Origin: Daphnia carinata
Taxonomy: Eukaryota > Arthropoda > Branchiopoda > Diplostraca > Daphniidae
Direction of reading: 5' to 3'
Assembly: GCF_022539665.2 (NCBI RefSeq)
Contig: NC_081331.1
Coordinates: 14,318,999 to 14,382,998 of the forward strand
DNA length: 64,000 bases
Each line of letters starts with the position of its first letter. Position 1 is the stretch's first letter. A model generated the notes under the pieces. The model searched no databases and was not told the origin of the DNA. It saw only the letters and a program-made list of their open reading frames with translations. The translations under genes were made by a program, and so were the position numbers. Below are positions 54,408-57,492 of this stretch, in pieces.

Positions 54408-57400
54408 TTAGCGTAAGTCGACGCCGAGTTTGATCAAGAGTTCAATCGCTTGAAATGATTGTGGGCTTGAATTGTGTCGACACAAAAGCTGAAGGGCATT
54501 CTTTCCATCGTTGTTCTTTGCGGCCTTGTCGATTTCGAGTTCGATCAATAGTTTAATTGCATCGATTAAGTGTTGGCTTGAATTGTATTCACACAAAATA
54601 TGAAGCGCATTTGATCCATCGTTGGTTTTCGCGTTTTTGTCGATGCCGAGTTCGATTAAGAGTTTAATGGCAACGATTAGGTGTGGGCTTGAATTGTTTC
54701 GACACAAAAAATGAAGCGCATTCCATCCATCTTTGTCCTTTGCATTTATGTCGATGCCGAGTTGTATTAAAGATTCGATCTTATCCCTTATATCGCTTCG
54801 ATATACGAAAGTATCGAACATCCATTGTGGTAATATGCTATAATCTGTTGTTCGACACTGATCTGCACACAACCGATGCAGGTTTTTTTCTTCTTCGGTA
54901 AGCTAATTGGAAAACATTTGTTAGAGAACACAAATTTCATTTACGAAGAAGGTCTTAAACTTGAGTGACTTCATTACTTTGTTTTTTATGTCTCCAAGTT
55001 GATTAACAACTTCTTCAGATGTAATTCGTTTTTCAGGTGTGCTCGTCAGCATTTGTTCTATTAAGGTACGTGCTAAATGTTTCTGGTGAATTCCTATTTC
55101 TCAAAAGTTTTAGACATTTAACTAGTATGGTTATGTTGTATGATCTGCCTCAGAGGTAACTTACCACTCATATTGACTGATTTCGTGATGTTTTTCGCAA
55201 TTTCTAAAGCATTTTCGCCGTAGATATGTTTTCCTTTCAAGAGAATATAACCGAAGACGAGGCCTTCTGCGTATACATCGCTCTTGATGGAGCCTTTAGC
55301 TTTTTCAATTTGTAGGTCTCTGCCCATAATTTCCATCACTTCTGGAGAGAACCAAATTTTAGTCCCTTTGACTCCACTCATTGTGAATGTTCCTCGTTCA
55401 CTCACTTCTCGTGACAATCCAAAATCAGCCCACTTGATCATCAGCTCTTCACCTTGGTCAGTATGTTTCACAGAAATGAGAATGTTTTCCGGTTTAATGT
55501 CCCGATGGATTAGTTTCTTCGAATGAATGTATTTGAGACCAGTTGCTAACTGGTAGAAAACCTCGAAATTGTTTGGTAATGCAGGTCCTTTATATTTCGG
55601 GTTATCTTTCCCATTTAGGAACACCTGATCCAATGATGCGTCGCACAATTCCAAAGCAAAGTAACTGAATAACAGTAATCGTATGGAAATTCTCTTTTTA
55701 ATTCAAAGTTATCACGTAATTATCTTACTCGAAGTCGGCATTGCTTGTGAAGTGGACCAATTTAACAATATTGGGATGGTCTAACTGCTTCAGAATTTTT
55801 AACTCGTTGTCATGGTTTTGAGCTCCACTCCTCAGAATTCGCTTGACTGCTATACTTTGGCCTTTATAAGTACCTCGATACACATGACCATATGTGCCGC
55901 TCCCTAAAAAATCGTTGCGAGCGAATTGGATGCCATCTACGTTTACGGGAATAGTCGATCCATTGATATCCTCCGCGTTTAAGTCGACGCCGAGTTCGAT
56001 CAAGAGTTCAATCGCTTGAAATGATTGTGGGCTTGAATGGCATTCGTACAAAAGATGAAGGGCATTCTTTCCATCGTTGTTCTTTGCGGCCTTGTCGATG
56101 CCGAGTTCGATCAAGAGTTTAATCGCATCGATTAAGTGTGAGCTTGAGTTGTATCGACACAAAATATGAAGCGCATTTGATCCATCATTGGTTTTTGCGT
56201 TTTTGTCGATACTAAGTTCGATCAAGAGTTTAATTGCATCTACAAAGTGTGAGCTTGAATGGTATCGACACAAAATATGGAGCGCATTCCATCCAAAGAT
56301 GTTCTCTGCGTTTATGTCGACGCCGATTTGCATTAAAATTTTGATGCTATCTCTAATATGTGTTGGACAGTTATCTGCACATAGCTGATGCAGGTGTTTT
56401 TCTCCTTCGATAAGCTAAATGGAAAACCCTTGTTAGAAAAATCTAATTTCATTGACGAAGAAGGTGTTAAACTTGTGTTACTTGATTACTTTAGTTTTGA
56501 TGGATTGAAGTTGATCAACAACTTCTTCAGATGTAATTCTTGTATCAGGTGTGTAGGTCAGCATTTTTTCTATTAAGTTACGTGCTAAATGCTTTTGGTG
56601 AATTTCTATTTTTAAAAAGTTTTATACATTTAATTATTATACTTATGTTATATGATCTGCCTCAAGAGATAACTTACCACTCATATTGACTCGATTGTTC
56701 TGCTTCATGTTCACCACAATATCATATTCATTTTCACCGTAGATATGTCTTCCATTCAAGAGAATATAACCGAAGACGAGGCCTTCTTTGAATACGTCGC
56801 TTTTGATAGAGCCTTTAGTTTTTTCAATGCGTAGGTCTCTGCCCATAATTTCCATCTCTTCGGGAGAGAACCAAGGTAGAGTCCCTTTGACTCCACTCAT
56901 TGTGAATGTTCCCCTTTCACTCACTTCTCGTGCAAATACAAAATCAGCCCACTTGATAGTTGCTTCTTCACCTTGGTCAGTATGTTTCACAGAAATGAGA
57001 ATGTTTGTCGGGTTAATGTCCCGATGAATTACACGCTGTGAATGAATGTATCTGAGACCAGTGGCTAATTGGGAGAAAACCTCGAAATCATTCGGTAATG
57101 CAGGTCCTTTGTATTTCCGAAGATCGTCCTCACTTAGGAACACCTGATCCAATGATGCGCCGCACAATTCCAAAGCAAGGTAACTGAATAACAGAAATCA
57201 TATTGAAATTTTCTTTTAAATTCAAAGTTATTACGTAATAATCTTACGTGAAGTCGACATCGCTTGTGAAGTGGACCAATTTAACAATATTGGGATGGCG
57301 TAACTGCTGCAGAAATTTTAACTCGTTGCCAGCTATTGGATCTCTGCCATCCTTTTCCTTCATAATTCTTTTGACTGCTATACTTTTACCTTTATATTTA

Positions 57401-57492
57401 CCACGATACACTGATCCGTAGCCACCGCGACCCAAAAGATCATTGCGATCAAATTGGATGCCACCTACATTTACGGCAGTAGTCGATGACAT
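54408..57492 (-). CDS. Pseudokinase-ankyrin-kinase-ankyrin fusion protein, IRE1/RNase L-like kinase domains
   Basis: Seven exons, 57248-57492, 56678-57183, 56490-56605, 55729-56414, 55165-55664, 54978-55093 and 54408-54902, join with consistent phases into 887 residues from the ATG at 57492. Kinase 1 (about residues 1-289) has GRGGYGSV and AVKRI (K41), but HRDINPTN (135-142) has Asn for the catalytic-loop Lys. Its DFG is DFV (162-164), so a pseudokinase is predicted. ANK block 1 (three 37-residue repeats) runs without a stop into kinase 2 (about 445-723: GSGTYGHV, AVKRI, HRDIKPEN, DFG, FSPEVME), which looks active. ANK block 2 (three repeats) ends at GVDLR. IALEL/FALELCDASL-type and SGVKGT-W-SPE motifs point to the IRE1/RNase L kinase family. 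No KEN nuclease domain is present. The exon pattern is repeated in both halves, indicating tandem duplication and fusion. Confidence 0.85.

Follow-up and report, generated by a model that had tools for sequence, protein, structure and literature searches.

A predicted tandem kinase-ankyrin gene of Daphnia carinata within a large family of IRE1-type kinase-ankyrin genes

In JAKs, FERM and SH2 domains are followed by a pseudokinase and then by a tyrosine kinase, and regulation of the active kinase by its impaired partner is known in these proteins. The kinase domains of IRE1 are also known to pair. RNase L, which is kin to IRE1, is laid out as ankyrin repeats, one pseudokinase, and a nuclease, and it is activated by the pairing of its pseudokinase domains (accessible text of PMC3710099 and PMC4730318). 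In plants, TKPs such as WTK1/Yr15 and RPG1 carry a kinase and a degenerate kinase in tandem. According to the accessible text of PMC6170490, plant TKPs originated repeatedly via duplication or fusion, the 92 TKPs of that study carry no further conserved domain, a decoy role is suggested for them, and their likeness to JAKs is remarked upon.

Here, we describe a locus in the window, by which we mean the whole 64,000-nucleotide stretch of D. carinata DNA that was analysed. We found that seven predicted exons on the minus strand, from 57492 to 54408, join into a single open frame of 887 residues (2664 coding bases with the stop) (Table 1). All six introns have GT-AG borders, the exons start in phases 0, 2, 1, 0, 2, 1, and 0, and the 887 codons contain no stop or frameshift. 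The domain order along the protein is kinase 1, ankyrin repeats, kinase 2, and ankyrin repeats. Consistently with this, a Pfam scan of the 887 residues found two Pkinase stretches (whole-protein E value, 9e-84) and ankyrin families. The halves of the gene are duplicates whose exons pair one to one, as do their introns, and over kinase exon b they differ by a dS of 0.24 and a dN of 0.14. These results bear out a first-pass annotation of this DNA, which had described seven exons of matching phase, an uninterrupted 887-residue protein, and two halves alike in exon structure. It had also assigned three ankyrin repeats to each kinase. We found that both sets are present, but three full units and one partial unit lie downstream of each kinase, and a structure model of exon 4 has four helix pairs. 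Compared with the rest of the kinase-ankyrin family, the gene is frameshifted at its stop (54408); just past the stop, in another frame, is a C-terminal segment resembling the one found in several single genes (the WNALDLSRRNKNLTNCNVDEIF type).

Table 1 Features of the fused gene, its flanks, and a further ankyrin array in the window
Feature	Position	Strand	Basis
5' flank; piecewise homology (70-89% identity) to the region 5' of many related single genes; the fused gene's presumed promoter	57493..58600	-	Flank comparison
Exon 1: start codon, then N-lobe of kinase 1 (MSSTTAVNVGGIQF...), in which the glycine loop and VAVK are intact	57248..57492	-	Gene model; alignment of related N-lobe exons
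Exon 2: kinase 1 C-lobe, with HRDINPTN and DFV (degenerate)	56678..57183	-	Gene model; motif comparison
Exon 3: end of kinase 1	56490..56605	-	Gene model
Exon 4: ankyrin domain 1, continuing in the same frame into the N-lobe of kinase 2; junction near 55958 (residue 442)	55729..56414	-	Gene model, alignment, structure model
Exon 5: kinase 2 C-lobe, with HRDIKPEN and DFG intact; holds Met at residue 593	55165..55664	-	Gene model, motif comparison
Exon 6: end of kinase 2	54978..55093	-	Gene model
Exon 7: ankyrin domain 2 and stop; family C-terminal segment out of frame beyond the stop	54408..54902	-	Gene model, comparison with family
3' flank; piecewise homology to 3' flanks of related single genes	53400..54407	-	Flank comparison
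Ankyrin array of a second family member, broken up among several frames, beside which no kinase was seen; truncated where contig C1 ends	61716..63999	-	Ankyrin matches

We aligned 10 related N-lobe exons and found that 9 start with M(S/P)STT, while the tenth piece starts inside that stretch. At the start of kinase 2, the window reads ...AEDINGSTIPVNVDGIQF, which is ankyrin sequence, in frame, where a start codon would be. The comparison of AEDINGSTIPVNVDGIQF with M(S/P)STT thus indicates that the start codon of kinase 2 was replaced in frame. The first methionine after the junction is residue 593, beyond the catalytic (HRD) loop, and comparison of the window junction with the related exons revealed no intergenic sequence between ankyrin domain 1 and kinase 2. 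The 5' flank common to many single genes sits solely before kinase 1, and the 3' flank sits solely after ankyrin domain 2. Because kinase 2 lacks a start codon of its own and its first methionine lies past the catalytic loop, the reading of the window sequence as one gene with the layout kinase 1-ankyrin-kinase 2-ankyrin appears well supported, barring a wrong assembly. The first-pass annotation had likewise called one gene, and it had named a stop or a collapsed intergenic region between the halves as evidence that would speak against this. We found 0 Ns in the window and an in-frame junction. Exon 4 as a whole has a single genome match at high identity, which is the window itself. The annotation had also proposed structure prediction. 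In the structure predicted for exon 4 (alignment of 21 rows, 2 of them spanning both domains; mean pLDDT, 83.9; pTM, 0.71), four ankyrin helix pairs and a short linker are predicted to be followed by strands and a helix ordered as in a kinase N-lobe; pLDDT is 64 to 70 across residues 191 to 228. A fold search of the PDB with this model returned ankyrin-type matches and added little. Many of these are presumably designed ankyrin proteins bound to other molecules. A microhomology word at the junction was dropped as evidence, given that kinase starts are homologous anyway.

Kinase 1 has HRDINPTN for HRDIKPEN and DFV for DFG, a pair of changes that L021 alone shares among the 45 rows from this genome. 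The motifs of kinase 2 are intact. The earlier description of the first domain as a pseudokinase thus fits the two changed motifs, but the VAVK lysine, the HRD aspartate, and the DFG aspartate are all present. Because these three key catalytic residues are kept, kinase 1 may be active. Judged by motif, kinase 1 appears to be mildly degenerate and a weak case of a pseudokinase; the first kinases of the tandem genes on C6 and C8, described below, appear to be the strong case.

We found that the best PDB sequence relative of both kinases is IRE1 (E value of 2e-35 for kinase 2 and 4e-32 for kinase 1), which occupies the best 16 PDB rows for each; RNase L is not in the best 60. Pfam found no KEN nuclease (PF06479) in the 887 residues, and FERM and SH2 were not among its matches. 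The start codon lies directly 5' of the kinase in exon 1, and no luminal sensor or transmembrane domain was found in the protein by Pfam. Both window kinases are of the IRE1 type and lack the KEN nuclease. Genome-wide, a KEN search returned one clear locus, C1:1475609-1476044 (two pieces), and a weak partial match at C3:11879450. We rejected descent from an RNase L-like gene with a nuclease, as there was no KEN near the kinase-ankyrin family. A viral source was also set aside: the kinase 2 exon found no relative when run against viral contigs, in a scan that reaches close relatives only.

The locus resembles both IRE1 and RNase L in part. IRE1 is the nearest solved structure by sequence to both kinases, but the window protein has no KEN nuclease and has ankyrin repeats and two kinases. 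Like RNase L, as laid out in the accessible text of PMC4730318, it combines a pseudokinase with ankyrin repeats in one chain; unlike RNase L, with its ankyrin repeats, one pseudokinase, and nuclease, it starts with a kinase, has two kinases, and has no nuclease.

Related kinases are numerous in this genome. We found at least 186 matches to kinase 2 and at least 150 to a C6 kinase exon. Both counts are lower bounds for which the best candidates only were scored; some weaker matches among them may be other kinases, and the 186 count exons of one gene apart. The kinase 2 search was used to cut out 30 loci, of which 2 are the window itself and 28 are L010 to L038 without L023. In all 28 (3.5-kb pieces), one three-exon IRE1-type kinase is followed by ankyrin repeats, and no ankyrin repeats were found in the ~1.2 kb before the kinase, a stretch that in L021 includes a 100-N gap. 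When 15 of those genes were read over longer stretches (14 loci), each proved to be a single kinase-ankyrin gene, with ~5 to >30 repeat units that mostly lie within one exon. Their ankyrin arrays are not always whole: breaks or frame changes occur in L043, L044, and L052, stops occur in the array of L046 (two genes), and L022 likewise has a frame change. In exon b, the HRD aspartate is absent from the single genes L025, L026, L028, L032, and L034, which are thus further pseudokinases outside the tandem genes; L026 also lacks the DFG glycine. By layout and sequence, the window gene belongs to this large IRE1-type kinase-ankyrin family.

We also found that kinase exons on C6 and C8 are often paired. 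In L054 (C6), a degenerate kinase, whose N-lobe also lacks the usual glycine loop, is followed by ankyrin repeats, an open frame directly into an intact kinase, and ankyrin repeats. In L055 (C6, G000:C6:9462100-9467600), whose frame is broken, ankyrin repeats separate three kinases in a row. A stop closes the ankyrin stretch ahead of the third kinase, with an ATG only a few bases further on, and no ankyrin match follows that kinase among the matches listed. The first-kinase subfamily has 23 copies (22 on C6 and 1 on C8) with 78 to 100% identity to L054, including one split into two matches, one with a stop, and one partial copy; a 47-residue fragment and a 64% match on C8 fall outside this count. 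In 22 of the 23 copies, a second kinase exon lies 1.4 to 1.6 kb downstream on the same strand, and the kinase-to-kinase spacing in the window is 1.5 kb. We then used the ankyrin-to-kinase junction of L054 (234 residues) as the query and kept matches that began no later than residue 20 and reached at least residue 219. Thirty-three places read from ankyrin repeats to the N-lobe of a kinase with no stop between; of these, 29 lie on C6, 2 on C8, and 1 on C7, and one is the window's own. Because some of the C6 copies are nearly identical, the 33 places represent fewer independent genes and may include assembly redundancy, and junctions far from the C6 type may escape this query. Other places, L055 among them, match the junction in part or with stops. 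The first-pass annotation had named no described animal family with this domain order. That the window gene is a solitary case is not supported, since the multi-copy C6/C8 subfamily has the same layout.

Of the 23 first-kinase copies, we sampled 7 and found that all lack the DFG aspartate (NFG) and have HGD or HGN for HRD. The partners of these first kinases, which are second or third kinases, have DFG in 8 of 8 cases and the full HRDxKxxN in 6 of 8; the loop is damaged in the second kinase of L055 (HRDIQPSS) and in L061 (HREIKPTN). On C7, the HRD and DFG motifs are both intact in the upstream member of the kinase pair. Because two of the eight partners are damaged and the upstream C7 kinase is not degenerate, an inactive-active order is not a rule.

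The relationships of these kinases were examined in a tree of 169 columns of exon b and 46 rows, 45 from this genome plus human IRE1, which has a very long branch. Both window kinases fall among the single genes (98/85). The seven C6/C8 first kinases form one group (100/100), and the eight partners form another, weakly supported one (87/55). AU tests, which gene conversion could blur, rejected the grouping of kinase 1 with the C6/C8 first kinases (P = 3.2e-6) and of kinase 2 with the C6/C8 partners (P = 4.0e-4). A shared origin of the window gene and the C6/C8 tandem genes was thus rejected, though the two have similar numbers of ankyrin units ahead of the second kinase. Therefore, the tandem layout arose at least two times; the C7 junction may be a third origin. 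A clade of kinase 1, kinase 2, and L021 is absent from the best tree but was not rejected (AU P = 0.13).

Median omega is 0.45 for the C6/C8 first kinases (0.34 to 0.74; 21 pairs), 0.51 for their partners (0.24 to 0.68; 28 pairs), and 0.43 for 23 single genes (pairs with a dS up to 0.02 left out). Constraint is moderate, and active kinases are no more constrained than inactive ones. For kinase 1, omega is 0.60 against kinase 2 and 0.78 against L021, i.e., weaker constraint than the family median.

L021, on C3, starts at its 100-N gap, just where the kinase begins, and is 96 to 100% identical to window kinase 1 over the first 700 bases. After this, it is 77 to 92% identical to the first half of the window gene and 77 to 85% identical to the second. 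It is then closer to the ankyrin repeats of the second half for 200 bases (87 to 97%). Over the following 100 bases, the first half is the closer one (95%), and from there into the 3' flank L021 follows the second half (95 to 99%). The frameshift that ends the window gene is also present in L021, and no kinase 2 was found in the ~0.8 kb beyond its ankyrin repeats. This mosaic fits exchange between the halves of the fused gene or conversion between loci, and the order of events could be either.

Our preferred reading, which we hold with slightly better than even confidence, is that the window gene is a fused pair of family members in which an impaired kinase 1 serves as the tethered regulator or bait of an intact kinase 2 in a cytosolic sensor and that the C6/C8 layout arose separately. 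According to this model, two kinase-ankyrin genes fused with the loss of the 3' end of the first and of the promoter and start codon of the second. The protein would be a cytosolic sensor whose ankyrin domains bind a partner; the ankyrin arrays, whose length differs from one family member to another, are the likely surface for this binding. Fusion in tandem would make the kinase dimer of IRE1 and RNase L covalent within one chain. Kinase 1 would hold kinase 2, scaffold it, or act as bait for it, and binding of the partner would free kinase 2 to phosphorylate itself and its targets.

The first-pass annotation had likened the gene to JAKs and plant TKPs. With regard to tandem layout, this is fair and is bolstered by the multi-copy C6/C8 subfamily. 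Common descent is not supported: the kinases are of the IRE1 type, and Pfam found no FERM or SH2 domain. Like JAKs, the window gene has a pseudokinase ahead of a kinase in one chain; unlike them, it has ankyrin repeats between and after the kinases. By motif, it also resembles plant TKPs in joining a kinase to a degenerate kinase, but its kinases each carry ankyrin repeats and are of the IRE1 type, the degenerate kinase comes first, and the genome is that of an animal. The window gene and the C6/C8 genes thus appear to be like plant disease-resistance TKPs in layout, not in descent. An immune function of the kinase-ankyrin family is a guess that we base on family expansion, turnover, and analogy. 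A bolder proposal, about which we are rather doubtful, is that these genes could be a crustacean counterpart of plant TKP immune receptors that evolved at least twice independently, in which a fast-duplicating set of cytosolic kinases derived from IRE1 lost the nuclease, gained variable ankyrin arrays for recognition, and in certain lineages fused two modules, with a pseudokinase that gates an active kinase or acts as its bait.

The fused gene could also be real DNA and yet be functionless as a tandem kinase, a by-product, now in decay, of unequal crossing-over within a family of fast turnover. The family is large and recombining, and L021 is a mosaic of both halves. Frame breaks or stops occur in the upstream ankyrin array, L055, L021, L022, L025, and L026, the C-terminal segment is out of frame after 54408, and the omega values of 0.60 to 0.78 for kinase 1 against kinase 2 and L021 point the same way. 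Against such decay stand 887 codons without a stop or frameshift, six of six canonical introns, and intact kinase 2 motifs, as well as the retention of the layout by a second, multi-copy subfamily of separate origin, whose median omegas are 0.45 and 0.51. We consider a mere by-product unlikely, though by no means negligible.

It is much less probable that the assembler collapsed two single genes into one. The family offers near-identical repeats, including several near-identical C6 copies, the window ends at the contig end within an ankyrin array, and related L021 starts at a 100-N gap at the start of its kinase. However, the window contains no N, its junction keeps the frame, and there are 32 further stop-free places that run from ankyrin repeats to a kinase. 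Moreover, the window junction has no second high-identity copy, which argues that it was not copied from another assembled place. We find it scarcely credible that the locus holds two overlapping genes, with kinase 2 made from its own internal start or by trans-splicing. A separate start is conceivable in the C6 copy L054, where a methionine lies just before kinase 2, and L055 has a stop ahead of its third kinase; in the window, kinase 2 has neither a methionine before the catalytic loop nor the family 5' flank.

Among the top-ranked matches in the open-licence PMC literature, we found no paper on the kinase-ankyrin family or on the kinase-ankyrin-kinase-ankyrin layout in animals; a prior description of the layout outside that literature is possible. 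The accessible text of PMC4528696 and PMC4833078 does not mention either. That of PMC3710099 reports a Daphnia expansion of another HEPN family, and that of PMC4551569 describes a Daphnia magna gene that has three ankyrin repeats, responds to Pasteuria, and may or may not belong to the kinase-ankyrin family. If the window gene is real and expressed, then the pseudokinase-kinase tandem is not confined to plants and JAKs but arose repeatedly elsewhere, from a nuclease-free kinase of the IRE1 type and inside a family expanding in the manner of immune receptor genes. The window gene and the C6/C8 subfamily would be a natural replicate for why tandem pseudokinase-kinase proteins recur, and they point to a large kinase family with ligands and targets open to test.

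Several minor observations were made. The broken ankyrin array at 61716 to 63999 could reflect either decay or poor sequence at the contig end. On C7, kinase-ankyrin genes at G000:C7:4936883-4942369 and C7:2453155-2453955 have very long open frames (1987, 917, and 705 residues), and the second of these loci may be another ankyrin-to-kinase fusion. Exact 25-base TTAGG matches number 5277 in the genome, as would be in keeping with an arthropod. TTAGG repeats lie inside contigs at G000:C4:4795789-4796405, ~0.1 Mb from the C4 kinase-ankyrin cluster, and at C3:13204672, within the C3 cluster; these sites perhaps mark subtelomeric clusters or scaffold joins. Elsewhere in the window, we noted ordinary animal genes, namely a tyrosine phosphatase with FERM and PDZ pieces (12753 to 14809, minus strand), a thioredoxin-fold protein (18597 to 19391, plus strand), and an integrin alpha (34520 to 36073, minus strand).
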